NCBI RefSeq assembly: GCF_000244975.1
Contig: NZ_CM001440.1
Span: forward strand, 2,960,325 to 3,024,324
Length of the DNA: 64,000 nucleotides
Reading direction: 5' to 3'
DNA from: Saccharomonospora cyanea NA-134
GTDB lineage: Bacteria > Actinomycetota > Actinomycetes > Mycobacteriales > Pseudonocardiaceae
The notes under the pieces: generated by a model
What the model was told of the DNA's origin: nothing
The model's database searches: none
Seen by the model: the letters and a program-made list of their open reading frames with translations, nothing else
Program-made: the position numbers and the translations under genes
Shown here: piece by piece, positions 5,484 to 28,543 of the stretch
Layout of the letters: each line of letters begins with the position of its first letter
How positions within the stretch are numbered: position 1 is the stretch's first letter

Positions 5484-5514
5484 GCGGGGCGCCGCTCACC
5501 CGTCGGCGCCCCGC
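5484..5514. terminator. Bidirectional terminator hairpin between convergent genes
   Basis: GCGGGGCGCCG (5484-5494) pairs perfectly with CGGCGCCCCGC (5504-5514) around a 9-base loop. A second alternative stem GTGAGCG/CGCTCAC (5478-5499) overlaps it. It lies between the stops of the CoA transferase (+) and the acyl-CoA ligase (-). No T-tract follows, which is usual for high-GC actinobacteria. Confidence 0.6.
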
Positions 5515-6965: not shown

Positions 6966-7023
6966 ACCTGTCCCCTGTCGTCGGATCCGGCCTGTCTAGC
7001 CCGTCCCGGACCGTCCCGGACCG

Positions 7024-8163
7024 TCACAGCCGCTGCAGCACCGTGGCCGTACCGAGTGATCCTCCGCAGCACATCGTCACGAGCGCGTGCTCGCGGTCGC
7101 GCCTGCGCAGTTCGCCGAGCGCGGTGGCGACCAGCCGGGCTCCGGTGGCTCCCATCGGGTGCCCGAGCGCGATCGCTCCCCCGTTGACGTTGACGCGGTC
7201 GAGATCGGCGCCGGTGCGCTCGACCCACGACAACACCACACTCGCGAACGCCTCGTTGACCTCCGCGAGGTCGAGGTCGGCCAGCGCCATCCCGGTCCGG
7301 TCGAGCACCGCCCGGGTCGCGTCGACGGGGCCGTCGAGCAGGTAGTACGGATCGGCCCCGACGAAGGTGTGCCCCACCACGCGGCCGATCGGGCGAAGGC
7401 CGAGTGCTTGTGCCCGCTCGGCCGACATCCACAGCACGGCCGCGGCTCCGTCCGACACCTGCGAGGTGGTCGCGGCGGTGTGCAGGCCCTCCCGCAGGGT
7501 CGTCCGCAACGTCGCCAGGGTCTCCGGCGTCGAGTCCCGGATTCCCTCGTCCTCGGTCACCACGCCGTTCGGGGTCTCCACCGGCACGATCTCCTCGGCG
7601 AACACGCCACGGTCGCGAGCCGCCGCGGCGAGGCGTTGCGACCGCACCCCGAAGGCGTCGAGCTGCTCCCGGGTGTGGCCCTGCCTGCGGGCGATGCGTT
7701 CGGCACCCCCGAACTGCAGGCCCGGCGGGTCGTCCCAGGGGTAGTCGTCGGTCTGGTAGTCACGCTTGCCACCGGGAATGTTCGCTCCCGCGGGCACGCG
7801 GCTCATGCTCTCCACACCGCACGCGATGCCGAGGTCGAGCACCCCCGCGTCGATCTGCGCGCGGATCAGCTCGTTCGCCTGCTGCGCCGACCCGCAGCTG
7901 GCGTCGATCGTGAGGCACGGCACCGTGTGGTCGAGCCCGGTGGACAGCCACGCGCAGCGGGTCACGTTGAACCCCTGCTCGCCGACCTGGGTCACGCAGC
8001 CGCCGACGATCTGCTGCACGGCGGACGGTTCGAGACGGTTGCGGCGCAACAGCTCCAGGAGCACGGTCCGCAACAGCTCGGCGGGGCGCATTCCGGACAG
8101 CACACCGCCGCGCTTGCTGATCGGCGTCCGCACCGCGTCGACGACGACGGCGCGGGAGGTCAT
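7024..8163 (-). CDS. Thiolase (acetyl-CoA acetyltransferase family)
   Basis: A 379-residue thiolase with the nucleophilic cysteine in IDASCGSAQQA (about residue 87), the histidine in GGAIALGHPMGATGAR and the second cysteine in CCGGSLGTA, so all three catalytic residues are present. Length is normal. The ATG at 8163 overlaps the stop of the isomerase gene (ATGA); the longer open frame upstream is antisense noise. It could carry out the degradative thiolytic step on a beta-ketoacyl-CoA or a condensing step. The DASCGSAQQA context is the type found in FadA5-like and acetyl-CoA acetyltransferase thiolases of actinobacteria. Confidence 0.9.
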   Translation of the reverse strand: MTSRAVVVDAVRTPISKRGGVLSGMRPAELLRTVLLELLRRNRLEPSAVQQIVGGCVTQVGEQGFNVTRCAWLSTGLDHTVPCLTIDASCGSAQQANELIRAQIDAGVLDLGIACGVESMSRVPAGANIPGGKRDYQTDDYPWDDPPGLQFGGAERIARRQGHTREQLDAFGVRSQRLAAAARDRGVFAEEIVPVETPNGVVTEDEGIRDSTPETLATLRTTLREGLHTAATTSQVSDGAAAVLWMSAERAQALGLRPIGRVVGHTFVGADPYYLLDGPVDATRAVLDRTGMALADLDLAEVNEAFASVVLSWVERTGADLDRVNVNGGAIALGHPMGATGARLVATALGELRRRDREHALVTMCCGGSLGTATVLQRL

Positions 8164-8858
8164 CCGCAGCCTCCCGCCGTGTCGGTGTCGTACGCACCGA
8201 CCAGGTCCCGCACGGCCGCCGGCGCGGGTGGCACCTCGGGCACAGGCTCGCCGGTCAGCGCGGCCACGAAGTCGTCCACCCGGTCCAGCCCCCAGAACCG
8301 CTCCCGTCCGATCCGGAAGTACGGCACCCCGAACACGTCGTCCTCGTACGCCCGCACCAGCGCCTCGGTGCCCGCCTCGCGCAGCCGGGGATCGTCGGGC
8401 GCGGCGACCAGTTCGTCGCCGGGCAGTCCCGCCGCCTCGGCCACCGCCCGTACCACCTCGGGCGTGCACACGTTCTCCCCGCGCTCCCACCGGGCGGCGG
8501 TGATCCCGGCGTAGAACTGCGCTCCCCTGCCGAGTTCGGTCGCTCGGATCCACGCGAGATGCGGCAGTTCCCACCACGGGTCCACGTCGACGGGCCACGT
8601 CATGGTCAGCCCGTGCTTGCGGACCTGGCGCCGCACGTCGTAGAGGATGTACAGGTGCTTGGCCTTGCTCATCTGCTGGTAGTGGAAGTCGGCGCCACGC
8701 TCGTGCAACGCCGCCGTGGTGCGCTCGTCCGGGTCGTAGTACGGCAGCAGCTCCACCCTCTCGGTGAGATCGGGCACGGCGCCCAGCAGCTTCGTCATGG
8801 CGATCCAACTGAACGGGCTGCGGAAGGAGAAGTGCACCCGTGGCCTGCGTGCGCTCAC
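8160..8858 (-). CDS. DsbA-fold isomerase, 2-hydroxychromene-2-carboxylate isomerase-like
   Basis: A 232-residue thioredoxin-fold (DsbA/kappa-GST) protein. Near the N-terminus it reads FSFRSPFSW, with serines where oxidoreductases have CxxC; this SPFS pattern belongs to HCCA isomerases, which use a thiol cofactor for cis-trans isomerisation. GVPYFRIG near residue 190 is the usual cis-Pro loop (GVPxF). It overlaps both neighbours by 4 bases. In actinobacteria the thiol would be mycothiol rather than glutathione (inference). Within a KS/ACP operon it may isomerise double bonds in a polyene intermediate, or act in degradation of an aromatic unit; the sequence does not decide. Confidence 0.8.
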   Translation of the reverse strand: MSARRPRVHFSFRSPFSWIAMTKLLGAVPDLTERVELLPYYDPDERTTAALHERGADFHYQQMSKAKHLYILYDVRRQVRKHGLTMTWPVDVDPWWELPHLAWIRATELGRGAQFYAGITAARWERGENVCTPEVVRAVAEAAGLPGDELVAAPDDPRLREAGTEALVRAYEDDVFGVPYFRIGRERFWGLDRVDDFVAALTGEPVPEVPPAPAAVRDLVGAYDTDTAGGCG

Positions 8859-9751
8859 CGGCCCTCACCTCGCCGCAGCGTCTCCACCGTCTCCTCGTCC
8901 AGCTCCGCGAGCTGACCGACGGACTCGCCGCGGGTCACCGCGTAACCGTGCAGGATCGTGCCCGCCGCCACCAGCCTGGTGTGGTCTCCCTCGACGACGT
9001 GACAGGTCATGCGGCCGTCGAACGCGCGCCCGGCCACGATGTCGTCCACGGCGAACGTGGTTCGGACGACGTCGTCCATGCGCGCCTCGCCGTACACCGC
9101 GACCCTGGCCCTCGACACGACCGGGATCCAGCCACGCTCGGCGAGCAACCTCGGCACCGACAGGCCGACCGCGGCGAGGTAGCGGTCCACCGCCTCCTCC
9201 ATCGCCGCCACGTACGTCGAGTGCTGCACGACGTCCGAGTAGTGGCAGTGGAAGTAACGCGCCGTCCAGTCCCAGGAGAACTCCCCCGGCCGTCCCGCGA
9301 TCTCCTCGGAGGCGACCGGGGAGGTGAGCAGCGCCCGCAACTCCTCGGGCACCTCGGCACCGTGGCGCTCGGCGGCCGCCTCCGGGACCAGTGCCACCGT
9401 GAGCCTGCCCCGCAACACCCGCGCAGGGCTCTCACCACCGGTCCGCAACCGCACGGTGAACGTGGCGCCGCCGGTGCGGGTGACCTCGGCGGTCACCTCG
9501 TCGTCCACCTCCAGTGTGGCGGGCAGCAGCACGGAGGAGTCGAGCACGCGCAGCCCGACGCCGTACTCGTGGAACAGCCGCTGCGGGCCGAGATCCCGCT
9601 CGCGGAACCAGCCGAGCACGGCCTCCTGCGCCAGCTGCATGAACTGCTTGAACCCGATCCACGTGCGGATGTTGGCGCTCTCGTAACGAGGGCGCAGGTG
9701 CGTGACGACACTGCGCTCCTCCACCTCCCGCGCGAGCGGTTCAGCGGTCAT
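8855..9751 (-). CDS. Double hot-dog acyl thioesterase-like protein
   Basis: A 298-residue protein apparently built from two 4-hydroxybenzoyl-CoA-thioesterase-type hot-dog domains. The N-terminal half has YESANIRTWIGFKQFM and the second half HYSDVVQHSTYVAAMEE (about 175-192), which fits the family pattern of an Asp near a His followed by Y and E on the long helix. It overlaps the hydrolase and isomerase genes by 4 bases on each side. Likely releases an acyl chain from ACP or CoA; FadM/YbgC-like thioesterases (ApeK) have that place in aryl-polyene clusters. Substrate is inferred from context only. Confidence 0.75.
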   Translation of the reverse strand: MTAEPLAREVEERSVVTHLRPRYESANIRTWIGFKQFMQLAQEAVLGWFRERDLGPQRLFHEYGVGLRVLDSSVLLPATLEVDDEVTAEVTRTGGATFTVRLRTGGESPARVLRGRLTVALVPEAAAERHGAEVPEELRALLTSPVASEEIAGRPGEFSWDWTARYFHCHYSDVVQHSTYVAAMEEAVDRYLAAVGLSVPRLLAERGWIPVVSRARVAVYGEARMDDVVRTTFAVDDIVAGRAFDGRMTCHVVEGDHTRLVAAGTILHGYAVTRGESVGQLAELDEETVETLRRGEGR

Positions 9752-10545
9752 CGGTCTTCGCTCCTTTCGGCTCGGTGTGCGGTGGGTGACGCCGCGAACC
9801 GCGTCAGCAGCTCGGCAACCTGTTCCGCATGCCGGATGTGGCAGAAGTGGTCGAACTCCGCATGCCAGGTCAGGGTCGCGTCCGGCAGCGCGCCGGTGAG
9901 CCTGGACAGCTGCGCGCGGGACGCGCCGGGATCGCGCTCGCCCGCGACGACGAGGACCGGGATGCCGAGCGACTCCATGGGAAGGTGCCCGCTCGCCACG
10001 TACTGTTCGAAGACGGCCAGAAAGCCCGTCAACCCGATCCGCTCGAACACCTTGTCGGTCATCGACTCGACGAGCGCCTCGCCGATCCGTTCGAGTCGTC
10101 CGCCGAGCCGCGCCCGCACGGCCTCCCGCATCTGGAACTCGAACGCCTCACGGGAACGGTTCCAGGTCCGCCAGGTCGGACGGGGCTCCGGAGCACGGTA
10201 GAACGGAACGATCATCGCGAGTGCTCCCGCGCCGCAGTACTCCCGTGCCACCGCCTCCAGCGACGCGTTCGCCCCGAACGAGTGGCCGACCAGCAGGTCG
10301 GGTTTGCGGTCGAGCCGGTCGAGACCGGTCGCGATCCACGACGCGGGCGGCGCGGTCCACCGCCAGCCGTAGTCGTTGCCCGCGCGCCAGGGCATGTCGA
10401 GCGCCACGGTGTCCCAGCCGTCACCGAGTGACTCCGACACGGACCGCCACGAGCGCCAGTCGTCCTCCAGCCCGTGCACGAACACGGCCAGGGGGCGATC
10501 CGGCCGCGACGGGCCGAGCCGCTTCGGACGTACCTCGGCGTTCAT
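9748..10545 (-). CDS. Alpha/beta-hydrolase
   Basis: A 265-residue alpha/beta-hydrolase. The nucleophile elbow is VGHSFGAN (serine near residue 92), the acidic residue probably lies in VAGERDPGAS, and the histidine in the C-terminal EFDHFCHIRH. FVHGLEDDW is the N-terminal oxyanion-hole HG motif. The start at 10545 overlaps the upstream KS-like stop by 4 bases (ATGA) and its own stop overlaps the thioesterase start the same way. There is no signal peptide, so it is cytosolic. It may be a second releasing enzyme or an editing hydrolase for the ACP line. Confidence 0.85.
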   Translation of the reverse strand: MNAEVRPKRLGPSRPDRPLAVFVHGLEDDWRSWRSVSESLGDGWDTVALDMPWRAGNDYGWRWTAPPASWIATGLDRLDRKPDLLVGHSFGANASLEAVAREYCGAGALAMIVPFYRAPEPRPTWRTWNRSREAFEFQMREAVRARLGGRLERIGEALVESMTDKVFERIGLTGFLAVFEQYVASGHLPMESLGIPVLVVAGERDPGASRAQLSRLTGALPDATLTWHAEFDHFCHIRHAEQVAELLTRFAASPTAHRAERSEDR

Positions 10546-11423
10546 CCGCGCCCCGCGGTGATCCGGGTGGAGCGGAAACCCTCTTCCGGAGCACCACACA
10601 CCGCGGTGATCGAACGCACCGTGGAGTCGGCGGCGACGACGGCCGCCGCGACGGCGACCTGGAGCACACCCTCGGCGCCGTAACCGCGCCCTCCACTCCC
10701 AGTGTCCACTGTGACTCTCCCGTGTGTTGTCGAATCGGCGAAGAGCCCGCTGTCGTGTGCGGTGGACTCGACCATGACGTCGTGCAGGAACGCTCCGCCG
10801 TCCTCGGCGTGCCCCGCTGCCTCCAGTACGACGCAGGCCGCCACCGGCACCCCCGGCGCACCGGTGGCGCGGGTGAGCAGGGCGTCGGTCACCTCGTCGC
10901 GTGGCTCGACACCCACCACGACGACCCGGCCGGCCCGGCCGGACAGCAGCAGCAACCTGCCCAGCCCGACGGCGTCGAGTCCCGAGGAGTGGCCCGAACA
11001 GACGGTCAGGTTCGGACCGCCGAACCGGAACCAGATCGCCACCGTGGAGGCGATCACGTTGCTGGACGCGTTGGGCGCATCGAGCGGGCTCACCGCACGC
11101 ACGCCGCCGTCGCGCAGGGCGGTACCGAGCCCGGCCACGGTCGCGACGTTGCCGAGGTTGGAGCTGACGATCACCGCGGTGCGCGGATCCATCTCCTCCG
11201 CCGAGCGGCGCGGTGCCCGCTCCGGGAGGCCGAACGCCCGGTGCACCGCGCACAACGCCATCCTCGTCGCCGGTTCCTTGGCCAGCAGTCCCTTGCGCCC
11301 GAGCAGTTCGGCGGCGCGTTCCGGAGGCGGGACGGGGTCCGGCTCCCAGTGTTCCGTGCGCGTACCGGGGACCGGCTCGGGAAGGCACACCGCCCGCCGG
11401 GTGATCGCGACCAGCCGGTTCAC
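10542..11423 (-). CDS. Truncated ketosynthase-like (chain-length-factor-like) protein
   Basis: A 293-residue protein related to the N-terminal thiolase-fold half of beta-ketoacyl synthases but without a usable active site. In NLTVCSGHSSGLDAV the position of the catalytic cysteine is H145, and the two C-terminal catalytic histidines are absent. GPNLTVCSG and ASNVIASTVAIWF keep the dimer-interface look of the fold. It overlaps the upstream, fully catalytic KS gene by 4 bases, an arrangement typical of KS/CLF heterodimers; short KS-like partners such as ApeC occur in aryl-polyene clusters. Non-catalytic partner of the adjacent KS is the best hypothesis. Confidence 0.75.
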   Translation of the reverse strand: MNRLVAITRRAVCLPEPVPGTRTEHWEPDPVPPPERAAELLGRKGLLAKEPATRMALCAVHRAFGLPERAPRRSAEEMDPRTAVIVSSNLGNVATVAGLGTALRDGGVRAVSPLDAPNASSNVIASTVAIWFRFGGPNLTVCSGHSSGLDAVGLGRLLLLSGRAGRVVVVGVEPRDEVTDALLTRATGAPGVPVAACVVLEAAGHAEDGGAFLHDVMVESTAHDSGLFADSTTHGRVTVDTGSGGRGYGAEGVLQVAVAAAVVAADSTVRSITAVCGAPEEGFRSTRITAGRG

Positions 11424-12544
11424 GCTGCCACCTCCGGAGCGGCCAGCAGGGTGACGGCGTTGACCCCACCGAAGCCGAAGGCGTTGACCTGCGCCACCCT
11501 CACCGGCAGCGGCACCTCGGCGGGGTGGGCGAACCGGAACCCGTCCGCCTCCCCGATCGCCTCACGCAACCCGACGACACCCGGTACCCGGCCCGCTCGC
11601 ATCGCCCGCATGGCGACGTCGACGTTGACCAGCGCCGCCGCGCCCGAGGTGTGCCCGACCGCGCCCTTCACCCCGGTGAGCACGGGGCGGCGCGGCCCGG
11701 AGAAGACGCGCCGCAACGCGCGGAGCTCGGCGGGATCGTTCTGTTCGGTTCCCGTGCCGTGGGTGACGACGAGATCGACCTCCTCGGCACCCACCCCCGC
11801 TCGCGTGAACGCGTCCCGCATCGACCGCACCATGCCCGCCACGTCCGGGGCGGTCTCGTGGTGCGCGTCGCAGCACAACCCGGTGGCGAGCAGTCCCGTT
11901 TCTCCCGGCCCGGCGGTCCCGGCCGCGACGACCACGGCGGCGGCGCCCTCGCCGAGCAGCACACCCGTGCGGTTTTCGTCGAAGGGCCGCACCTGTGTCG
12001 TCGGAGCCGGCGTGACCCGCCCGATCATCGCGAGCATCGACGCCGTCATCACGTCGGTGCCCGCCGCGACCACCCGCTCGGCGGCACCGGAGTCGACCAG
12101 GTCCTGGGCCAGCGCCAGCGCGTGACCGGACGCACTGCAGGCGTTCGACAACGTGATCACCGGGCCCAGTCCCTCGCCCAGCTCGGCGAGGCAGGGGCCG
12201 AAGTGCAGCCGATGCAGTTCGAGTTCGTCCCTGCCCTCGGCCCACCGCTCGACGGCACGCAGTTCGCGAAGGCCGGTGCCGACCACGACGGGCACGCGCT
12301 CGGTTCCGGCGTCCACACCGGCGTCCGCCAGCGCACGCGCCACGACGGAGGTCAGCAGCCGGCTCGCACCGTATCGGGGCTCGGGACCGTCGTCGGCCGG
12401 GTGATAGGCTCGCGTCACGTTGACCGAAGCAGCGTCGACGTGCCGTAGTGGCCCCACTCCGCTACGACCCTCGAGGAGCGCTCCGAACGTGGCGGCGCCG
12501 TCGCCGAAGCAGGTGCGCACGGCGCTAGCGACGATGCGCGCCAC
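11420..12544 (-). CDS. Beta-ketoacyl-ACP synthase (active type), first KS pair
   Basis: A 374-residue KAS I/II-type ketosynthase with a complete Cys-His-His site: C136 in SNACSASG, H262 in THGTGTEQND and H298 in GAVGHTSGAA. NAFGFGGVNA near the C-terminus is the standard glycine-rich loop. It is about 30-40 residues shorter than FabF, mostly in the N-terminal half. Its first 20 bases overlap the end of the upstream KS-like gene, and its last 4 overlap the downstream KS-like gene. Catalyses decarboxylative condensation of malonyl-ACP with an acyl chain; likely heterodimerises with the 293-residue KS-like protein. Confidence 0.88.
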   Translation of the reverse strand: MARIVASAVRTCFGDGAATFGALLEGRSGVGPLRHVDAASVNVTRAYHPADDGPEPRYGASRLLTSVVARALADAGVDAGTERVPVVVGTGLRELRAVERWAEGRDELELHRLHFGPCLAELGEGLGPVITLSNACSASGHALALAQDLVDSGAAERVVAAGTDVMTASMLAMIGRVTPAPTTQVRPFDENRTGVLLGEGAAAVVVAAGTAGPGETGLLATGLCCDAHHETAPDVAGMVRSMRDAFTRAGVGAEEVDLVVTHGTGTEQNDPAELRALRRVFSGPRRPVLTGVKGAVGHTSGAAALVNVDVAMRAMRAGRVPGVVGLREAIGEADGFRFAHPAEVPLPVRVAQVNAFGFGGVNAVTLLAAPEVAA

Positions 12545-13640
12545 GCGACCATCCCCTCACCACGGTGGCCCCGACGGCCCCGTCGGGCGAGTGCGAGACC
12601 AGTATCGAGAGTTCCCCGTCACGCTCGGGGCTGTCCCGGTGCCGTCCGAGGACCGCCGTCAGGTCCAGCGCGGCGGTCGCCGAACCGCAGTCACCGGCGT
12701 GTGCCTGCGTCGTGAGGCACTCCGGCTTCGGCGAACCCGCGGCGGCCAGCTCGCGGCACACCTCACGCCACATCGCCCTGTCCTCCCGTTCGTCCGCGGT
12801 GGGACGGACCCATGCGGCGGTGACGCCCTTGCCGAGACCGGCGCCCGCACGCTCGGCCGAGGCCAGCGCCCGGCGCACACAGCCACCCAGCGCGGCGGGC
12901 CGGTCGGCGAACGTGGCCGAGAAACCGAGCGCCACCCCGAGGATCTCGGCATCCGGGTCGGTCCCGCCCCCCGTGGAGAGCGCGAACATCGCACCGCCCT
13001 CCCCCGGATACGTGGCCGGTGGCAGTCCCGCGGTGCGGGCCAGCCACGCCGCGTGCGGACTGAGTTCGTCGATGACACCGGCCAGCAACATGTCGACCTG
13101 CCCGGTGCGGAGCAGGTTCGCGCTGTAGCGCAGCACGCTCATCAGTGCCATGGCGCCACCTGCGATGGTGGCGTTGACACCCCGCAGCCCGAACCAGATC
13201 GCCGCCTGTCCCGCCGCGCAGTTCATCACGGTCGTCGGGAACAGGCCCGCGTTCACCATGTACGGCCGTTCCTGGACGAACGTGTCCACGGCGTAGTCGA
13301 CGGAGGACCGCACACTGCCCGCCGTGGTGCCGAGCACGATGCCGATCCTCGTCGAATCGAGCGTGCCGAGATCGATGCCCGCGTCCTCGAGCGCCTGCCT
13401 GCACGCGACGACGGTCAGCCCGGTCCTGCGGTCGAAGAAGCTCGTTCCCTTGCGACCGAGCTCGGTCCGGATGTCGAAGTCGCTCACCGTGAGACCGGGT
13501 CCGCCGGGCAACGACTCCGGGTCCGTTTCCTCCGTGTTCCCGGGAACAGCCGCGGGACCGCGCAGTGCCGCCGCGAGTTCCGTCGGTGTCCGCCCGGCGG
13601 CACTCAGCGTGCCCACCCCGGTGATGGCCATGGTGTTCAT
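12525..13640 (-). CDS. Chain-length-factor-like ketosynthase homologue, active site lost
   Basis: A 371-residue ketosynthase homologue. VMNCAAGQAAIWFGLRG (about 138-153) shows it belongs to the KAS I/II fold, but the nucleophile region reads NATIAGGAMALM, with Ala163 at the cysteine position. The final catalytic histidine is also missing: QAHAGDCGSA stands where active enzymes have GH near the Lys-x-x-x-GH motif. It overlaps the active KS upstream by 4 bases, the usual arrangement for a KS-alpha/KS-beta pair. Predicted to control chain length or dimer geometry rather than condense. Confidence 0.82.
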   Translation of the reverse strand: MNTMAITGVGTLSAAGRTPTELAAALRGPAAVPGNTEETDPESLPGGPGLTVSDFDIRTELGRKGTSFFDRRTGLTVVACRQALEDAGIDLGTLDSTRIGIVLGTTAGSVRSSVDYAVDTFVQERPYMVNAGLFPTTVMNCAAGQAAIWFGLRGVNATIAGGAMALMSVLRYSANLLRTGQVDMLLAGVIDELSPHAAWLARTAGLPPATYPGEGGAMFALSTGGGTDPDAEILGVALGFSATFADRPAALGGCVRRALASAERAGAGLGKGVTAAWVRPTADEREDRAMWREVCRELAAAGSPKPECLTTQAHAGDCGSATAALDLTAVLGRHRDSPERDGELSILVSHSPDGAVGATVVRGWSRGAHRR

Positions 13641-14842
13641 GAGGCCGCTCCGAGCATCACGATCGCGTTGTTGCCGCCGAAGGCGAAACCGTTGTTCTGG
13701 ACGACGCGGACCTTCGCCTCGCGGTGCTGGTTCGGGATCGGGTCCAGCCAGGGCATTTCGGGGTCGCGGGTGGACCAGTTGATGGTGGGCGGCAGGAACC
13801 CGCGCGCGACCGCCAGCACGGAGGCGATGGCACCGAAGCCGCTCGCCGCTCCCATCGTGTGACCCAGCATCGACTTGATCGAGCTCACCGGAGGCACGTC
13901 ACCGTCGAACACCTCTCGGAGTGCGCGTGCCTCGGTGAGGTCGTTGGCCGGGGTTCCCGTCCCGTGCGCGCACACGTAGTCCACGTCCCCCGGCTCCACA
14001 CCGGCGTTCGCGTGTGCGGCACGCATGCAGTCGGCGATCGAACCCGCGTCCGGTGTCACCATGTGGTTGGCGTCGCAGTTGGACGCGTAACCGAGGAACT
14101 CCGCGTAGGGCACGGCACCGCGCCCGCGCGCGAAATCGGCCGACTCCAGCACCAGCACGCTGCCGCCCTCGGCGGTCACCATTCCGGCGCGGTCCCGGTC
14201 GAACGGGGTACACGCCTCGCCCGCCACCGCGCCGAGCCGCAGGAACCCGGCATGCGCCCAGCGGCAGACCGAGTCGGCACCACCGCTGAACACGACGTCG
14301 GCCTCACCACTGGTGATGAGGTCGTAGGCGTAGCCGAGTGCGTAGTTGCTGGCGGAGCAGGCCGTCGCGATGGTCATCGACTCACCACGCGCGTCCAGCT
14401 CCGCGCTGACCGCCGCGGAGAGCCGGTCGGCGGGCAGGTTCTGAGCGATCTCGTCGGGAACGGCGTCGAAGCCGCCCTCGGCGAGATACTGTCCGTACAG
14501 TTCCGTGGCCTTCGCCTCGCCGCTCGTGGTCCCGATGACCACCGCCACCCGGTCGAGGTCGAGCCGTTCCCACTGCAGGCCCGCGTCGCGCGCGGCGAGG
14601 CGGGCCGCCGCGGCGGCGAACTGGCTCGACCGGCCCCACTCACGGGGATTGATGCGCCGCAGGATCGAGTCCGGATCGAACGCCCGAACCTCTCCGGCGA
14701 GGATCCGGGGAAAGCCGGTCGTGTCGAAACTGGTGATCGGTGCGATGCCGCAGTGCCCCGCGCGCAGCCCGCTCTCGAACGCGGCGGCACCGATGCCGAT
14801 GCTCGACACCGGGCCGATTCCCGTGATCACTGCGCGGGTCAT
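13637..14842 (-). CDS. Beta-ketoacyl-ACP synthase (FabF-type), second KS pair
   Basis: A 401-residue FabF-like ketosynthase with an intact triad: C162 in ATACSASN, H293 in AHGTGTPAND and H328 in SMLGHTMGAAS. NNGFAFGGNNA closes the fold. Starting at ATG 14842 leaves 2 bases after the ACP stop; the alternative ATG 14857 would overlap the ACP by 13 bases. It is the most FabF-like of the four KS homologues and overlaps the dead KS-like gene downstream by 4 bases. Likely the main chain-extending enzyme, working on the ACP encoded immediately upstream. Confidence 0.9.
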   Translation of the reverse strand: MTRAVITGIGPVSSIGIGAAAFESGLRAGHCGIAPITSFDTTGFPRILAGEVRAFDPDSILRRINPREWGRSSQFAAAAARLAARDAGLQWERLDLDRVAVVIGTTSGEAKATELYGQYLAEGGFDAVPDEIAQNLPADRLSAAVSAELDARGESMTIATACSASNYALGYAYDLITSGEADVVFSGGADSVCRWAHAGFLRLGAVAGEACTPFDRDRAGMVTAEGGSVLVLESADFARGRGAVPYAEFLGYASNCDANHMVTPDAGSIADCMRAAHANAGVEPGDVDYVCAHGTGTPANDLTEARALREVFDGDVPPVSSIKSMLGHTMGAASGFGAIASVLAVARGFLPPTINWSTRDPEMPWLDPIPNQHREAKVRVVQNNGFAFGGNNAIVMLGAAS

Positions 14843-14844
14843 GC

Positions 14845-15099
14845 CTACACGCGCCATCCGGCGTAGTTCGCCGCCACCGTGAAGACCGAGTCGAAGTTGC
14901 GCATGGTCGCCAACTCCTGCTGCGGAATCTCTACCTTGTACTTACGTTCGATGCGCGCCAGCATCTCGATCGCGCGCAGCGAGTCGCCGTCGTAGTCCTC
15001 GGCGAAGTCTCCGTGATCGGTCAGCTCCTCCGGCTCGATCTCCAGCACGTCCGCGACCAGCTCGCGCAGTTCGGCCTTCCGCTCGTCCACATCGGTCAC
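14845..15099 (-). CDS. Acyl carrier protein
   Basis: An 84-residue acidic acyl carrier protein. The phosphopantetheine site is S40 in YDGDSLRAIEM, a variant of the usual DSL motif, with the expected four-helix length on either side. Start is GTG 15099, preceded by the ribosome site AAGGAG at 7 bases. It is the only ACP in the window, so all four KS homologues, the ketoreductase and the two dehydratases presumably share it. It lies 45 bases after the FabZ-like gene and 2 bases before the FabF-type KS. Confidence 0.93.
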   Translation of the reverse strand: MTDVDERKAELRELVADVLEIEPEELTDHGDFAEDYDGDSLRAIEMLARIERKYKVEIPQQELATMRNFDSVFTVAANYAGWRV

Positions 15100-15624: not shown

Positions 15625-16031
15625 GGCGCCTCCTGGTGTCCGAACACGGCGCGGATGGTGGCGAATCTCTCCCCGTGGCCGGTGAAGACGGCCCGGACGG
15701 TGCGGGGGCGTCCCGGCTCACCACGCGGCACGCGAACCGACAGCTCCACGGTGTCGCCGTCGCGGGCCGGGGTCGTGAACCGCGCCGACTCTACTCCGAG
15801 CAACCGGCTGTTCTCCGGCAGGACGGCGAGGACGGCACGTTCCAGCAGATCGAGCAGGAACACCCCCGGGTACACGGGGTTTCCCGGGAAGTGGCCCCCC
15901 AGGTACCTGTCGGCGGGGTCCACACGCACCTGTGCGGTGACCGTGGTGCCGTCGTCGTCGGGTACCGCGTCGAGCCGCCGGAGGACGACCGGGGACGCCG
16001 CTGGGGGCGGCAGCGGAGACGGCGGGTTCAC
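15621..16031 (-). CDS. FabZ/FabA-like hot-dog dehydratase subunit (His kept)
   Basis: A 136-residue hot-dog protein with the canonical active-site loop [12 protein letters not shown] (histidine near residue 43). Fourteen residues later FabZ enzymes have Glu; here it is Asp (FLLDLLERA). Start is GTG 16031, in a GTGA overlap with the ketoreductase stop; the longer open frame upstream is antisense to function. The following gene encodes the FabZ-like protein that has Glu but no His. Together they could provide one complete dehydratase site for 3-hydroxyacyl-ACP, giving trans-2-enoyl chains; no enoyl reductase gene is in the operon, so the double bonds may be retained. Confidence 0.82.
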
Positions 16032-16774
16032 AGCACCATCCCGCCGTCCACGGCGAAGACCTGACCGGTGATGTAGGAGCTTTCGTCGGAGAGCAGGAAC
16101 GCCACCAGCGGGGCCACGTCGTCCGGCCGTCCGAACCGGCGCAGGGGAATGGCGGCCAGTGCCTTGTCCTGGCCCTTCGCGGGCAGCGCCGAGGTCATCT
16201 CGGTGTCGATGTACCCGGGGGCGACGACGTTCGCGCGCACACCCGCCCTCGCCGTCTCCTTGGCCAGCGACTTGGTGAGCCCGATGATGCCCGCCTTCGA
16301 GGCGGCGTAGTTGCTCTGCCCCGCGTTGCCGTGGACGCCGGCGATGGAGGAGATGTTGACCACCGCTCCCGCGCGGCGCTTCAACATGCGGAACACCACC
16401 GCCCGGCAGACGTTCCACGTACCGGTGAGGTTCGTGTCGAGCACGGTGCTCCATTCCTCGGGCGACATCATCACCGTGTTCGCGTCGCGGGTGACGCCCG
16501 CGTTGTTCACCAGTGCCGTGATCGGTCCCAGCGCGTCCTCGGCTTCGGTCACGAACCGGCTCACGGCATCGGCGTCACGGACGTCGCACGGCTGGAAGAA
16601 GGTCCTCGCACCGGCTTCGGCCAGTTCCCGCTCCACGCGCGCCGCGTCCTCACCGCGCTGCCTGAAGCAGCCCGCGATCCGGTAGCCGTCCCGTGCCAGC
16701 CGCAGCGCGACCTCCCTGCCGATGCCCCTCGCCGCGCCGGTCACCAGCGCGCAGGGCTCCCCTGCGCCGGTCAC
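16028..16774 (-). CDS. 3-oxoacyl-ACP reductase (FabG-like SDR)
   Basis: A 248-residue short-chain dehydrogenase/reductase of classical FabG size. The NADP(H)-binding motif is VTGAARGIG near the N-terminus, NNAG lies about residue 86, and the catalytic set is S in NISSIAG plus YAASK. VDGGMVL closes the protein. Start is GTG 16774, overlapping the regulator stop by 4 bases (GTGA). Reduces the beta-keto group on the ACP-bound chain made by the KS pairs. Confidence 0.92.
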
Positions 16775-17952
16775 AGTGCCTGCTCCCTCTGCTCGGGTGC
16801 CGAGGCCAGCAACGCTCGGCGCGCCTCGGGGTCCTCCAGCTGGTTCGCCAAGGAGATCCACTCCGCCGCGACCTCCCTCGCGAGTTGGGCGACCCGCCCG
16901 GTGAGGTGCTCGGGAACAGAGCGGATCAGCGACTCGCACTCGTCCGAGTTGACCACGTGGGCCCGGAACCACATCAACAACGCTCTCCCGGACTGGGTGA
17001 ACCGCAGGCGCGGGTCGTGCGCGAGCGTGGCGAGCATCGCCGTCGGATTCCGCCTGAACCGGCCCTGCTTGACCGCCACGGCCTGAATGGACGGAGTTCG
17101 GCGCTCTTCGGTGTTCTCCTCCGTGGGCTGCTCCTGCTGTCGGCAGTGCCAGCCCTGCTCCGCCTCCCGCAGCCGGGCGGGAACCGGGTCCTCGTCACGT
17201 TCGAGTCGCATTCGGACGTCTCTGGCGGTCGCCGGGGAGATACCGGCGCGGCGGGCGACCTCCCGCAACGACGCGTTCGGCCGCTCAGCGAACAGCATGC
17301 TCGCGATCCGGCGTCCTTGAGCGCTGTTGACCGGTCGGGCGCGCCCGTCGGAGCCGATACGCACGGGCTCGTCCGCGTCACCGATGAGCTGCTGCCGCAG
17401 TGAGCTGACGGTCTTCGGGGACAGACCGGCGGTCTTGGCGATGCACCGGTCCGACAGGTGTGGCTGGGCCGTGAGGATGCGCGAGGCCGCGGCCCGGCGG
17501 TCGGCGAGGGTGAGCGGCAGCCCGTGGCTGACGTTCATGGTCACCGCCAGGCGGAAGGCGTCCGCCTCGGCTCCCTCGAAGAACCTGACCCGGATCCGGT
17601 CCTCACCACGGATGACCGCGGCGCGCATGCGGTGCATGCCGTCGACGACGCGCATCGACGACCGGTGGACGATGATGGGCGGAAGGCTCCCCCCGAGTTC
17701 CGCGAGCACCTCGGTGTGGTGGTTGTCCTCTCCGGACAGACGCGGCGAATCCGCAGGACGCAACAGGTGGATGGGCACCCACTCGGGCTCGCTCAACAGC
17801 GAGCACAGCGCGTCAGGGGATCCGTCTATGGGCCGTGCCGGTTCAATCCGACCAGCGTCGACCCTTCCGGTAATTGCATCCAAGGCCGTGTCCCCCGGCT
17901 CCAGCTGACGACAATCGGTGACACGCCGAATAGTTGTCGAGAAGGAGCTCAC
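16771..17952 (-). CDS. StrR-like ParB-domain pathway regulator
   Basis: About 393 residues. An N-terminal ParB-like domain (roughly 55-160) contains [18 protein letters not shown] and the typical variant of the ParB box. Two helix-turn-helix segments follow: [21 protein letters not shown] and [20 protein letters not shown], linked by [12 protein letters not shown]. This layout is that of the StrR/NovG/Tei15-type activators of antibiotic clusters rather than chromosome-partition ParB. Start is GTG 17952 or TTG 17958; neither has a clear ribosome site. It is the first gene of the KS/ACP unit, and an inverted repeat with StrR-site geometry lies about 117 bases upstream, so it probably activates its own operon. 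Confidence 0.85.
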
Positions 17953-18068
17953 CGGCAAGTAAGGAAATGTGAACTCTCATGAACCGGTAGCAGTTCGGAA
18001 CAACCACACGAACAAGCCGAAGTCCGCCACGACTGCTCCATTCAGACCAGTATCCTGGTCCTGCGGAC

Positions 18069-18097
18069 GTTCAACATCCGAATCCACCCGGTTGAAC
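18069..18097. promoter_or_regulatory. StrR-type inverted repeat, candidate operator
   Basis: GTTCAAC (18069-18075) and GTTGAAC (18091-18097) are perfect inverted arms separated by 15 bases. The published StrR consensus, GTTCGActG-N11-CagTcGAAc, has 7-base arms with the same 15-base spacing. The site lies about 117 bases upstream of the StrR-like gene, consistent with autoactivation of the operon. Confidence 0.6.
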
Positions 18098-18228
18098 AGG
18101 CAGCTCAGCTCGACATGCGGAAACTCAGGCAGAATTTCGCATGAATAACACGGCACAGCAGCAGAAGCCCCGCACCCAAGCCCGATGGCCACACCGGGGC
18201 GGCGCCATAATATCCGGGAGCTCCCCGC

Positions 18229-18250
18229 CTTTCAATTCAATTCTTGAAAG
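18229..18250. promoter_or_regulatory. Dyad CTTTCAA-N8-TTGAAAG
   Basis: Perfect 7-base inverted arms (18229-18235 and 18244-18250) around an AT-rich 8-base centre, inside the divergent regulatory region. Could be a regulator-binding site or part of a promoter; no known consensus is matched. Confidence 0.35.
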
Positions 18251-18497: not shown

Positions 18498-19634
18498 GTG
18501 GAGTTGAAGGAGAGCCCGGCCGAGGAGTCGTTCCGCCGTTCGCTGCGCGACTGGCTCGCCTCGCTGCCCCCGGCCCGTGAAGGCGCATCCCAGCCCCTCG
18601 ACCGAGACCACATCCAGTGGTTCAGCTCCGAGCTGCACGGTGCGGGGTTCGCGGGTGTCAGCTGGCCGAGTCGCTACGGCGGCCGGGGACTGCCCCCGTC
18701 GTTCGAGGGCATCGTGTTCGACGAACTGGTTCGAGCCGGGCGGTCCGGCGACGTCAACGTCGTCGGCCTCGGGATGGCCGGCCCCGCCATCATCGCCTTC
18801 GGGACGCCTGAGCAGCGAAGCGAGTACCTGCCTCGCATCCTGACCGGCGAGACCCTCTTCTGCCAGGGGTTCTCGGAGCCGGAGGCCGGTTCCGACCTCA
18901 GCGCCGTACGCACGAGCGCGGAGCGGGACGGCGAACACCTGGTACTCAACGGGCACAAGGTCTGGTCGACCGAAGCACCGGTGGCCGATCACTGCCTCCT
19001 CCTCGCGCGGACCGATCCGACCGCGCCCCCGCACAAGGGGCTGACCTGTCTGCTGGTGGACCTGAGACTTCCGGGCGTGCGCGTCGAACCGCTCAGGCAG
19101 CTCACCGGCGAGCAACGCTTCGGCGAGATCCACCTCACCGATGTCCGGGTACCCCACCACGCGGTGCTCGGCGATCCCGGCGCGGGCTGGCGCGTGGCGA
19201 TGACGACCCTCGCCCACGAACGCGGCACGTTCGCACTGCGCCTGGCCGCCGAACTGAGTCACCAGTTCGCGCGGCTCGTCGATCTGGTTCGGCACCGCGC
19301 CCCCGACCTGCCCGCCTCGGTCCGTGGGCGCCTCGCCGAACTGTGGACGGAGGTCGCCGGTCTGCGCTGGGCCGCGAACAAGGCCGCCTGCGACCTCGCG
19401 CGCGGCACGGCTCCCGGACCCGAGTTGTCCGTACTGAAGCTTCGTTGGGCCCACACCGACCAGCGGGTCGCGGAACTGGCGCTGGACGTGGTCACAGGCG
19501 AGGACGGCCCCGATTTCGAGCGCTGGCGACATCACGCCCTGCGCAGTCGGGCCAGCACCATCGAAGGCGGCACCTCGGAGATCATCCGCGACGTCCTCGC
19601 CCAGCGGGTGTTGGGCCTTCCCCGAGCACGATAG
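18498..19634 (+). CDS. Acyl-CoA dehydrogenase, larger subunit-like
   Basis: A 378-residue FadE-type flavoprotein. The FAD/substrate motif CQGFSEPEAGSDLSAVRT (about 118-135) and the C-terminal STIEGGTSEIIRDVLAQRVLGLPR signature are both present. Start is GTG 18498; no ribosome site is visible and a TACGGT hexamer 7 bases upstream suggests a leaderless message. The next gene, 12 bases downstream, is a shorter degenerate homologue, the arrangement of alpha2-beta2 dehydrogenases known from steroid and branched-chain acyl-CoA catabolism (FadE28/29, ChsE types). Probably introduces an alpha,beta double bond in an unusual acyl-CoA. Confidence 0.9.
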   Translation: MELKESPAEESFRRSLRDWLASLPPAREGASQPLDRDHIQWFSSELHGAGFAGVSWPSRYGGRGLPPSFEGIVFDELVRAGRSGDVNVVGLGMAGPAIIAFGTPEQRSEYLPRILTGETLFCQGFSEPEAGSDLSAVRTSAERDGEHLVLNGHKVWSTEAPVADHCLLLARTDPTAPPHKGLTCLLVDLRLPGVRVEPLRQLTGEQRFGEIHLTDVRVPHHAVLGDPGAGWRVAMTTLAHERGTFALRLAAELSHQFARLVDLVRHRAPDLPASVRGRLAELWTEVAGLRWAANKAACDLARGTAPGPELSVLKLRWAHTDQRVAELALDVVTGEDGPDFERWRHHALRSRASTIEGGTSEIIRDVLAQRVLGLPRAR

Positions 19635-19646
19635 GAGCCGGTGAGC

Positions 19647-20657
19647 ATGGATTTCACCGTCAGCCCGGAGCAGGAGCTGCTGAGGAAGACCGCCCGGGAC
19701 TACCTCGCGGCGGCGTCGAGGGACGGTTCCGGACGCACTCACGCCCCGTGGGGGGAACTGGCCGATCTCGGCTGGCTGGACACCGGCCTCGGTCCCGTCG
19801 AGCTGGCCGTCCTCGCCGAGGAGAGCGGGTACGCCCTGCTGACGCAGCAGTGGCTCGTCACCATGGCGGCCGCGGCACCCCTGTACGGCGCGGCAGGCCT
19901 GCCGATCACCGGCGCCGTCGCGGTCGCGGGGTTGGCCGAGCGCTCGCCACGCCCCACGATCACCCGGTCGGCGACCGGCCTCCTCCTGCGCGGACGGTGC
20001 GGACACGTGCCGTGGCACGACCGGGAAGGCGAGGTGGTCGTGCTGGCCCAGGGTGCGTCGGGACCCGAATTCGTTCGCGTGGTCGACGGTGGTGACCCGC
20101 CGCTGGTCACCGCCCTACCCGGTTTCGACGACACGCGTCCGGTGGTGGACGTGCGTTTCTCCGGGACCGCGGCCGAGCCGCTGCTCGGTGCCGACGACAC
20201 CACGGCGGCCCTGGCCGTGATCCGGCGCGGACTCCGGACGATGGCCGCCTGCGAGGCCGTGGGTGTCGCCCGCCGCGCGCTGGGCCTCGCCGTGGAACAC
20301 GCCACCATGCGGCGGCAGTTCGGAAAGCCGATCGGCACGTTCCAGGCGGTCTCCCACCCGCTCGCCGAGTCGTTCGCCGAGACGGAGTTCGCCTCCGCGC
20401 TCGCCTACCGCGCCGCGGCCACGTTGAACTCCGGCGACGACCAGCACACCGACGAGCCGTTCCTGACCGCGGAGCTGGCCGCCACGACCGCGGCTCTCAC
20501 CGCGACGGGCGCCGCCATCCAGACGCTGGGCGCGCAGGGGTACCTCCACGACGGTCCCGCCGCCGCCCTGCATCGGCGGGCGCGCAGCGGTTCTCCGCTG
20601 GGCACGACCCGCGCCGCGCTCGCGGACCAGCTCGCGACCGCGCTCCTCGACTCCTAG
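19647..20657 (+). CDS. Acyl-CoA dehydrogenase, smaller subunit-like
   Basis: A 336-residue acyl-CoA dehydrogenase homologue, shorter than the usual 380-400. The middle domain lacks the clear FAD motif of its upstream neighbour; the C-terminal helical domain is recognisable (MRRQFGKPIGTFQAVSHPLAE, about 220-240). ATG 19647 has GGAG 9 bases upstream; the GTG at 19641 would be only 3 bases from it. Together with the preceding gene it probably forms a heteromeric dehydrogenase. Downstream there is no further gene of the cluster on this strand. Confidence 0.86.
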   Translation: MDFTVSPEQELLRKTARDYLAAASRDGSGRTHAPWGELADLGWLDTGLGPVELAVLAEESGYALLTQQWLVTMAAAAPLYGAAGLPITGAVAVAGLAERSPRPTITRSATGLLLRGRCGHVPWHDREGEVVVLAQGASGPEFVRVVDGGDPPLVTALPGFDDTRPVVDVRFSGTAAEPLLGADDTTAALAVIRRGLRTMAACEAVGVARRALGLAVEHATMRRQFGKPIGTFQAVSHPLAESFAETEFASALAYRAAATLNSGDDQHTDEPFLTAELAATTAALTATGAAIQTLGAQGYLHDGPAAALHRRARSGSPLGTTRAALADQLATALLDS

Positions 20658-24918: not shown

Positions 24919-25515
24919 GTGATCGACACGACACCGAGGCCCACCTCACGTTCTCCCCTCGCCGCCGGTGACCTGGCGCACACGGTCGTGTTCGCAGCGT
25001 TCATCGCCGTGCTCGGGATCTTCCCCGGTATCCACATGGGTGGCTCCGGCGTGCCGATCGTGCTGCAGAACGCCGGTCCGCTTCTGGCCGGATGCGTCCT
25101 CGGCGCCCGGCGTGGTGCCGCCTCCGTGCTGCTGTTCCTCGTCCTGACCGCGATCGGCTTGCCGCTGTTGTCTGGGGGCCGGGCGGGTATCGCACCGTTC
25201 CTCGGACCCGGCGGCGGGTTCCTGGTGGGCTGGCTCGCCTCGGCGGCGGTCGCCGGACTCGTCGCCACCCGGCTTCGCGGGCCACGGCTGCCCGTGCTGC
25301 TGGTGGCCGCCGTGGCCGGGCTGCTCACCGACTACGCCATCGGCATCCCATGGCTGGGCGTGTACACGGGCCTGCCCGCGGCGGCGGTGCAGTCACTGGT
25401 CTTCGTGCCCGGGGACGCGGTGAAGGTGGTGGCCGCCGCGACGATCGCGGCCGCGGCGCACCGGGCACTGCCCGGACGGCTGGTGGCGACCGGAAACGGA
25501 AGACGCACCGAATGA
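24919..25515 (+). CDS. bioY: Biotin transporter S component BioY
   Basis: A 198-residue membrane protein with about six helices, the substrate-binding (S) subunit of an ECF-type vitamin transporter. GGRAGIAPFLGPGGGFLVGW (about 90-109) is the BioY signature region. Start is GTG 24919 with no strong ribosome site. The ATPase and T-component genes follow on the same strand, so the transporter is a dedicated BioMNY type. A 174-base stretch without a gene separates it from bioM, which is unusual for this operon. Confidence 0.9.
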   Translation: MIDTTPRPTSRSPLAAGDLAHTVVFAAFIAVLGIFPGIHMGGSGVPIVLQNAGPLLAGCVLGARRGAASVLLFLVLTAIGLPLLSGGRAGIAPFLGPGGGFLVGWLASAAVAGLVATRLRGPRLPVLLVAAVAGLLTDYAIGIPWLGVYTGLPAAAVQSLVFVPGDAVKVVAAATIAAAAHRALPGRLVATGNGRRTE

Positions 25516-25689
25516 CCTTCCTGGACGCCATCCCTGCTCCCAGGACGACGGACCGGAGTGTCGGGGAAGGCGCGAAGACCGCGAGCGGGCGCCCGGGGTC
25601 GCGCCGTGGCCGCTCCACGCGGCGGCACCGGTCGGCCAACGCGTCGCACGCGACGGGCTCGGCGTCGCACCGGAGCGGGAGGTGATCCG

Positions 25690-26364
25690 GTGATCGAGTT
25701 CGAAGGCGTCGCACATCGCTACGGCGACCGTACCGTGCTCTCCGAAGTGAATCTCCGGCTGGACGAGCACCGGGTGGCGTTCGTGGGTGCCAACGGATCC
25801 GGCAAGTCCACGCTGGCTCGGATGATCAACGGCCTGGTCCTGCCCACCACCGGCCGAGTCCTGGTCAACGGGTTGGACCCCGCCCGCCACGGCCGAACGG
25901 TACGGCGGCAGGTCGGGTTCGTCTTCACCAATCCCGACAGCCAGATCGTCATGCCCACGGCCGGTGAGGACGTCGCCTTCTCGTTGCGTCGCAGCGGTCT
26001 ATCCAAAAAGGATCGAGCGGTGCGGGCGGCGGAACTACTGGCCGCATACGGACTCGACGGATACGCCGATCACCCCGCACACCAGTTGTCGGGCGGGCAG
26101 AAACAACTCCTCGCGCTGTGCTCGATGCTCGTGCTCGAACCGGACGTACTCGTGTGTGACGAACCGACCACGCTACTGGATCTCCGTAACAAGCGGCGCT
26201 TCGTACGCGTGTTGGAAGACCTTGAACAGCAGGTCGTCCTGGTGACCCACGACCTGGACCTGCTCGGTGACTTCGACCGCGTGATCGTGCTCGACGAAGG
26301 CCGCGTCGTGGCCGACGACGACCCGGAACCCGCCCTGCGCTACTACCGGAAACTCGTCGACTGA
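25690..26364 (+). CDS. bioM: ECF transporter ATPase, BioM-type
   Basis: A 224-residue ABC ATPase: Walker A GANGSGKST (about 34-42), signature HQLSGGQKQLLALCS, Walker B VLVCDEPTTLLD, H-loop LVTHDLD. Start GTG 25690 follows an almost ideal ribosome site, GGGAGGTGAT; a longer frame upstream is not supported. Energises uptake together with the T component 13 bases downstream and BioY upstream. Confidence 0.9.
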   Translation: MIEFEGVAHRYGDRTVLSEVNLRLDEHRVAFVGANGSGKSTLARMINGLVLPTTGRVLVNGLDPARHGRTVRRQVGFVFTNPDSQIVMPTAGEDVAFSLRRSGLSKKDRAVRAAELLAAYGLDGYADHPAHQLSGGQKQLLALCSMLVLEPDVLVCDEPTTLLDLRNKRRFVRVLEDLEQQVVLVTHDLDLLGDFDRVIVLDEGRVVADDDPEPALRYYRKLVD

Positions 26365-27284: not shown

Positions 27285-28268
27285 TCAAGAATCTGGCTCA
27301 GTTTTCTTGGATGAAAGTTGTGCTTGTTGATCTTGCTGGTGGATCTCGATCGGTCGTTGCATGCCGAGTGCCTCGTGGGGGCGGATGTGGTTGAACACGT
27401 GCCGGTAGCGCTCGGCCTCGGCGGCGAGGGTCTGCCCGTCGTCGATCTCCATCCGGTAGAGGTGCTCGTACTTCAGCGATCCGAATGCCCGTTCCCGCAC
27501 GCCGTTCTGGCCGGGTGAGCGACGCCGAGTGCGGATGTGGAGCAGCTCGGGGCGAGAGGCGATGAACGCGGCGAACCTGCTGCCTTTGAAGGCGCCACCG
27601 TTGTCGGTGACCACCTTGATCCGCTTGATGTGCCCGGTCTCGGGGTTGGTGAGCTGCTCGGCCAACGGCACGCCACCGGCCAGCCGCTCGGCCTCGGCGA
27701 TCGCGATCCGGACGGCGAGCTCGGCATCGGCGGCGTTGCAGGTGGTCGCGAGGTGCCAGCCGAACTCGTACTTCGAGTAGTAGTCCGCGCACCCGGCGAT
27801 CCGCCAGATCCCACCACGGGTGGTCTCGAACTCAGAGAAATCCAGCTGCCACACCTGATTCGGCCCCGTAGGCGGCTCGGCGAACGCAGCCTTACGGGCC
27901 TTGGCTAGCTCTCGTCGTTCAGCCTGATATTTCGTGGACTGCAACAGATTCCGCCGCCGCATCGCCCGCTCCACGGTCGAAACGGACACCTCGTGTCCAT
28001 CGGCGCGCATCAATGCGTGGATCTTGCGGTGTCCCCACGCCGGCCAGGCCTGGGCATACTTCTCCACGACCGGCTCGAACGCCTCGACCGCCGGTGCCGG
28101 CCATGGGCCCTTCGGCGGGTTCCCGGCGCGCTGTTTGCTGATCCAGCGGGTATAGGTGCGGCGCGGGATGCCGATCAAGGCCGTGAACCTCGAGACCGGC
28201 ATCGCCGCGTCTTGGCGAATCACCTCGAGGTCCTCGAAGGGGCCAGCCGCTCCGCGGAGCGCTTCCAC
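27285..28268 (-). CDS. IS3-family transposase OrfB (DDE integrase domain)
   Basis: A frame of 327 codons. An HTH_21-like segment (WGHRKIHALMRADGHEVSV) precedes the rve catalytic core: first D in WQLDFSEF, second D in VVTDNGGAFKG, and E in GVRERAFGSLKYE. Its start overlaps OrfA by 49 bases in the -1 frame, so the active transposase is probably an OrfAB fusion made by ribosomal frameshifting. The TGA stop lies inside the terminal repeat. Confidence 0.93.
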   Translation of the reverse strand: MEALRGAAGPFEDLEVIRQDAAMPVSRFTALIGIPRRTYTRWISKQRAGNPPKGPWPAPAVEAFEPVVEKYAQAWPAWGHRKIHALMRADGHEVSVSTVERAMRRRNLLQSTKYQAERRELAKARKAAFAEPPTGPNQVWQLDFSEFETTRGGIWRIAGCADYYSKYEFGWHLATTCNAADAELAVRIAIAEAERLAGGVPLAEQLTNPETGHIKRIKVVTDNGGAFKGSRFAAFIASRPELLHIRTRRRSPGQNGVRERAFGSLKYEHLYRMEIDDGQTLAAEAERYRHVFNHIRPHEALGMQRPIEIHQQDQQAQLSSKKTEPDS

Positions 28269-28543
28269 ACCCGCAGCTCGACATGCGCCTCGCCCAGTGC
28301 CGTGGTCAACTCGTCGATCTGGGCCTGCAACTGCTCCTCACGACTCGAGGGACCGGCCTTACCGCCCTCGGCAACCCCGGCCCGGCCGCCCTCGAGGAAC
28401 TGGGCCTTCCACCGCGACACCGACTGCTCCGAGACCTTGTTCCGCCGAGCGGCCTCGGCGATCGTCATCTCCCCGGACAGCACGCTCAGCACGATCCGGA
28501 TCTTGTCCTCCACCGGGAACACCGGGGGACGGCTCATCGTCAT
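28220..28543 (-). CDS. IS3-family transposase OrfA (HTH)
   Basis: A 107-residue protein with an HTH (MTIAEAARRNKVSEQSVSRW, about 26-45) and a C-terminal leucine-zipper-like helix (EEQLQAQIDELTTAL). It binds the element ends. It starts 29 bases inside the right terminal repeat and overlaps OrfB. Confidence 0.92.
   Translation of the reverse strand: MTMSRPPVFPVEDKIRIVLSVLSGEMTIAEAARRNKVSEQSVSRWKAQFLEGGRAGVAEGGKAGPSSREEQLQAQIDELTTALGEAHVELRVWKRSAERLAPSRTSR

Follow-up and report, generated by a model that had tools for sequence, protein, structure and literature searches.

A perfect 29-bp dyad, GTTCAAC-N15-GTTGAAC, located upstream of a StrR-type regulator gene in Saccharomonospora cyanea NA-134, is probably the operator of that regulator, which most likely switches on its own run of 14 genes from it. 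The window (the whole stretch of 64,000 nucleotides analyzed here) reads GTTCAACATCCGAATCCACCCGGTTGAAC at 18069–18097; the arms are complementary at 7 of 7 positions and are separated by a spacer of 15 bases. The dyad would be a further example of the already known StrR-type operator class, and what counts for it is that it lies next to the one StrR-like gene detected in this genome. The features of the window are listed below; gene calls are frame-composition calls made in this analysis.

18069–18097, no strand: 29-bp dyad GTTCAAC-N15-GTTGAAC, proposed StrR-type operator (from sequence, motif counts and family spacing)
16771–17958, minus strand: StrR-type regulator gene, 395 aa, TTG start (GTG at 17952 is an alternative)
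17194–17283, minus strand: codons of the second helix-turn-helix (residues 226–255), including the recognition helix with Ala243 (from Pfam HTH_24 and the helix rule described below)
18207–18235, minus strand: promoter-like TTGAAA-17-TATTAT directed at the regulator gene and lying upstream of the dyad (by consensus match only)
16028–16774, minus strand: FabG-like ketoreductase gene, overlapping the regulator gene by 4 bp
10542–15090, minus strand: ACP gene and four KS-like genes, part of the regulator's run
5496–10545, minus strand: hydrolase, thioesterase-like, DsbA-like, thiolase and AMP-ligase genes, end of the regulator's run
18498–20657, plus strand: two divergently oriented acyl-CoA dehydrogenase genes, some 400 bp away from the dyad

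The Dyad and the Gene Run beside It

A sequence-only reading of this DNA had described the perfect dyad, with its arms of 7 + 7 bases and span of 29 bp, and this was confirmed. It had also placed the dyad about 117 bases upstream of the gene, a fair estimate of the measured gap of 110 bp (to the TTG at 17958) or 116 bp (to the GTG at 17952). The dyad sits in a region of roughly 540 bp between the minus-strand regulator gene and the plus-strand acyl-CoA dehydrogenase pair. No other mismatch-free match to its pattern occurs within the window. With up to two mismatches the window holds 6 matches, against 2.35 expected in shuffled sequences, so that weaker matches mean little.

The genome scan covered 5,408,301 bases (5.41 Mb). 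The pattern proposed earlier for such a scan, GTTCNAC-N15-GTNGAAC, occurs at 4 places in the whole genome. For GTYCRAC-N15-GTYGRAC, 3 perfect places were found (54 with at most one mismatch), which corresponds to an expectation of about 0.0003 for an intergenic region of this length (roughly 540 bp). Of these three, the window dyad alone has the arm type GTTCAAC/GTTGAAC; the other two places lie in long open frames with high third-position GC, which the window dyad does not. Against the longer consensus GTTCRACYG-N11-CRGTYGAAC, the dyad has 2 mismatches in all, both at positions 8–9 of the left arm (AT): at these arm positions (ctG / Cag), the right arm CGGTTGAAC fits and the left arm GTTCAACAT does not. 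A site in locus L043 has an identical left arm. One place in the genome has 1 mismatch to this consensus and five others have 2, so that six places score as high as the window dyad or higher and the dyad is unremarkable by motif score alone. The likeness to the known StrR site claimed in the sequence-only reading holds for the span and the arm type and needs correcting for the longer consensus, given the two left-arm mismatches and a dyad that is not the genome's best by this score.

The regulator heads a minus-strand run of 14 genes, separated by small gaps or overlapping, down to 5496. It is followed by FabG, a dehydratase-like gene, one further gene, ACP, four KS-like genes, a hydrolase, and thioesterase-like, DsbA-like, thiolase and AMP-ligase genes. 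This order bears out the claim that the regulator is first in a KS/ACP operon, and FabG, ACP and the four KS-like genes place it in a biosynthetic-type cluster. A likely master switch and its single predicted site can be named for a multi-KS (type II-like) cluster, which might therefore be turned on by expressing one gene.

A search of 397 genomes of the order detected relatives of KS2 in 41, counting the genome that contains the window. Stretches of 10.7–20 kb were fetched around 22 related KS runs, which keep much of the gene order. None of these 22 stretches contains a StrR match or a perfect dyad, and 5 contain a dyad with one mismatch. It is thus in the variant of the cluster found in the window that regulator and dyad coincide, and this weakly supports a link between them. 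In two genomes, G216 and G248, a StrR gene with an operator inside its coding sequence lies about 27–28 kb from KS2.

Several other features of the window were observed. The four KS-like genes stand in tandem after one ACP (window 10542–14830); KS1 and KS3 resemble AmcF and KS4 resembles AmcG of cispentacin biosynthesis, all well under NCBIfam cut-offs. Beyond the right side of the cluster, an integrase-core (rve) ORF with an overlapping upstream minus-strand ORF (window 27285–28543) is possibly an insertion sequence. BioY and ABC-transporter genes (window 24919–26364) probably form an uptake system unrelated to the cluster.

The Regulator, Its Family and the Recognition Helix

Only one StrR-like gene, that of the window, was detected in the 5.41-Mb genome. 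Its product is about 40–50% identical to StrR-like proteins, some of them encoded next to streptomycin-kinase (APH(6)) genes, which bears out the earlier assignment to the StrR class. For example, it shares 47% identity with the product of the L080 gene, whose locus contains, besides dTDP-glucose genes, an APH(6) gene that falls just short of the curated cut-off; the StrR-like gene of L136 adjoins an APH_6 gene. Pfam HTH_24 matched residues 225–255 of the window regulator (23.6 bits, cut-off 21.9), the Pfam ParB model did not match, and an NCBIfam search gave nothing at 0.001.

An AlphaFold2 model of the regulator (39 aligned proteins, mean pLDDT 80.6) places the helices of the middle helix-turn-helix at 212–225, 231–238 and 242–253. 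Foldseek gave a probability of 1.00 against ParB/Noc/KorB. The best structural match by VIA was KorB (8qa9_B, Z 12.0, 4.3 Å, 132 residues, model 57–195), followed by CTP/CDP-bound ParB (ParB Z 11.4). As judged from this model, the N-terminal part is a ParB-like fold. Calling the protein a ParB-domain regulator is right by fold (Foldseek, VIA), although zero ParB models of Pfam matched. The second helix-turn-helix (212–258) resembles AsnC-type domains with a low Z (about 5). The architecture is the same as that given for StrR in the accessible part of PMC10886168.

To characterize the operators of the family, we scanned 109 loci with StrR-like genes (30 plus 79 from named species; 1.69 Mb) for GTYCRAC/GTYGRAC dyads with spans of 22–39. 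At span 29 there were 35 perfect dyads vs. 0–2 at each of the other 17 spans, and 73 vs. 3–18 when one mismatch was allowed. A chance dyad was rejected because span 29 alone stands out among the 18 spans. The window dyad has this span and GTYCRAC arms, and its family link to StrR-type operators is supported at the level of sequence. In relatives, the position of the operator varies: it may precede the StrR gene, fall within it, or occupy another part of the locus.

The site of StrR is given as GTTCGActG(N)11CagTcGAAc in the accessible part of PMC8306873. StrR of Streptomyces griseus shares with the window the GTTC-type arms of a 29-bp dyad, a ParB-like fold combined with an AsnC-like helix-turn-helix, and the location of the gene in a biosynthetic cluster, but its left arm is GTTCGActG whereas that of the window is GTTCAACAT. 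CmlR of S. venezuelae (chloramphenicol), 44% identical to StrR, also has one StrR-type site in the divergent intergenic region of its cluster; according to the available text of PMC8406272, this site lies between the divergent promoters of two cluster operons and is bound in EMSA, whereas the predicted site of the window precedes the regulator's own gene. The glycopeptide regulators Bbr, Dbv4, Tei15* and AoStrR1 share with the window the family and the 29-bp span (GTCCAR-N17-TTGGAC in the portions consulted of PMC6022936 and PMC7852140), but have GTCC arms instead of GTTC. KorB of plasmid RK2 is similar to the window regulator in the fold of the N-terminal domain and the first helix-turn-helix. 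StrR-like proteins differ from KorB in their additional, second helix-turn-helix and in the C-terminal part; the two were compared by fold, and StrR-like proteins are not known to act as clamps.

Comparison of recognition helices, with residues taken from the alignment, revealed a relationship with the arms. Sites of proteins with Glu at the position of Ala243 have GTCC/GGAC arms (7 of 7), and those of proteins with Ala, Gly or Ser there have GTTC/GAAC arms (39 of 39, including the window with Ala and GTTC); Fisher's test gave p = 1.9e-8, although a quick tree shows only about 3 changes of Glu and the effective number is therefore small. Excluded from this count were sites with mixed arms (3), sites from loci in which the two StrR genes have different residues here (3; L036, L049 and L224) and repeats of identical site sequence, and the rule was suggested by its own first four cases (L019, L020, L023 and L054). 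According to the arm rule, Bbr, Dbv4, Tei15* and AoStrR1 should have Glu in the recognition helix. In both L036 and L049, the recognition helix has Glu in the first of two StrR-like genes of the locus and Ala in its companion or the reverse, a sequence difference that suggests two site specificities in one cluster.

Direction of Control

In our best explanation, a regulator dimer would set one second helix-turn-helix on each arm of 7–9 bp, about two DNA turns apart, and from this single dyad would most likely switch on its own polyketide-type run of 14 genes; the divergent acyl-CoA dehydrogenase genes are perhaps also switched on from it. What we infer here is that the regulator dimerises and binds the dyad, and that the net result is activation. 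In favor of this explanation are a perfect, non-coding dyad beside the only StrR-like gene detected in the genome, the prominence of span 29 in the family, the agreement of helix residue and arm type, and the published sites of StrR and CmlR. Against it are positions 8–9 of the left arm, the better or equal scores elsewhere in the genome, the few changes on the tree behind the helix rule, and a promoter-like match on the far side of the dyad. This match (TTGAAA-17-TATTAT, 18235–18207) agrees with the consensus at 10 of 12 positions, with 0.1 expected in shuffled sequences, and is the sole sigma-70-like match toward the regulator. Because it is upstream of the dyad, the dyad would lie in a transcribed leader, and autoregulation is as open as plain activation. 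The pathway-specific activation put forward in the sequence-only reading is a candidate mode of control, the arrangement fitting activation and autoregulation equally well.

It is possible, if unlikely, that the regulator binds the dyad for autoregulation from the leader, in which case it would block or tune its own operon's transcription instead of acting as an activator from upstream. The minus-strand promoter-like match places the dyad roughly 100–130 bp downstream of the likely start, and many relatives carry an operator inside their own gene. However, the promoter is a consensus match only, none of 9 other loci (two of them without a dyad in the stretch) has a promoter-like match upstream of the gene on the same strand, and the studied StrR-like proteins are described as activators in the part of PMC10886168 that was accessible.

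We are more doubtful that the regulator is, as the structural model might indicate, a ParB/KorB-like nucleotide-gated clamp which loads at the dyad and acts on distant promoters, the exact operator position then mattering little; such a clamp could coexist with activation or with leader autoregulation. Both KorB and VirB are said to load as clamps and to act at a distance. The best structural matches (KorB, then CTP/CDP-bound ParB) and the varied places of the operators in relatives agree with this idea, and a clamp acting at a distance would, by analogy, suit both the upstream promoter and the family sites well inside the transcribed region. On the other hand, a common fold does not demonstrate function. 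The ENxxR motif of ParB has Glu before Asn, and in the regulator the invariant Asn142 is kept but the preceding Glu is not conserved. Sliding of KorB up to 1.5 kb, as given in the available text of PMC11790492, counts for the clamp. In a 2025 survey of the ParB-CTPase fold, StrR is absent from the main text as far as accessible (PMC12704722), and a literature search for StrR with CTP gave nothing relevant by title. Whether StrR proteins, a classic family of antibiotic activators, work as ParB-type clamps becomes testable.

A chance dyad, or a site of another regulator, is very improbable. GTTCGAC-type matches are common in the genome, as seen from the 54 places with at most one mismatch, but this dyad is perfect and non-coding, and it has the family span and the arm type right for the adjacent regulator.

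Operators inside StrR-Like Genes

Analysis of the relatives led us to a tentative hypothesis that StrR-family genes carry their own operator in the coding sequence, as a 29-bp dyad at a fixed codon position of the linker, kept at the DNA level with arms that change together. Loading at this dyad, the proteins would act as ParB/KorB-like clamps on distant promoters, and the window would represent a relative with the operator in the leader. If true, the sequence of the regulator gene would suffice to predict operators, by way of the helix-to-arm rule and the fixed internal site, and it would be an unusual kind of self-control for the codons of a regulator to double as its DNA site. The literature searches turned up neither the internal operator nor the Glu/Ala rule. 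The StrR paper of Retzlaff and Distler (1995), which reportedly deals with "multiple recognition sites," was beyond this search, and an internal site in strR, that one gene, may thus already be known.

Counted from the Arg of the RxGxDGR motif, the internal operator begins 32 bases upstream and falls within the linker that separates the two helix-turn-helix domains; one example, GTTCAACCG...CAGTTGAAC, reads ..ST...QLN.. in translation. Among 191 genes (195 non-redundant ORFs minus 4 lacking a recognizable linker motif; 178,012 positions), 48 places with at most one mismatch were found, of which 43 are at exactly −32, 1 is at −35 and 4 are elsewhere in the gene. Of the 110 genes that make up the discovery set, 24 have at most one mismatch, compared with a mean of 1.5 and a maximum of 7 in 1,000 synonymous re-codings. 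The corresponding values are 19 of 81 genes, 2.0 and 7 in a Streptomycetales set that was drawn after the pattern had been seen, with identical linkers removed and near-identical ones kept. Synonymous re-coding does not explain an internal site at this fixed codon position (43 of 191 genes). The operator is perfect over 29 bp in L008, L011, L012, L034, L052, L056, L080, L082, L094, L097, L103, L107, L108, L111 and L113. Both arms are changed together in L060 (GCTCAAC/GTTGAGC), L068 and L105 (GTGCAAC/GTTGCAC), L048 and L065 (GCGCGAC/GTCGCGC), and L194 (GTTCAGCCG/CGGCTGAAC). On a quick tree, the label of internal operator, given to 57 of 192 rows, undergoes 30 or more changes.

Both of the streptomycin-type StrR genes that were examined, L080 (whose locus contains APH(6)) and L136 (which adjoins such a gene), also have the internal site, whereas the window gene lacks it:

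17365–17393, minus strand: linker position of the relatives' internal operator, no dyad in the window gene (10 mismatches; L005)

Neither the mean palindromicity along the gene nor an arm-permutation test over 10,600 combinations of offset and span (z up to 7.11 elsewhere, compared with 6.74 and 6.56 in the middle of the linker) singled out the linker, and conserved protein segments score as high as the linker in these analyses. The case therefore rests on synonymous re-coding and the positional count. Silent codons of the linker (Ser TCA/TCG vs. Leu TTG/Ser TCG) were combined as TCA-TTG in 11 cases, TCG-TCG in 8, TCA-TCG in 7 and TCG-TTG in 3, a covariation that leans the expected way. Near genes with an internal site, only 3 further operators with the same arms (at most one mismatch) were found in 23 loci, close to the value for shuffled arms (0–2). 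Perfect sites inside and outside the gene tend to be mutually exclusive: an external perfect site is present in 1 of 23 loci with an internal perfect site vs. 15 of 54 without one (p = 0.03), L096, which has an external site and an internal site with one mismatch, being counted among the latter.
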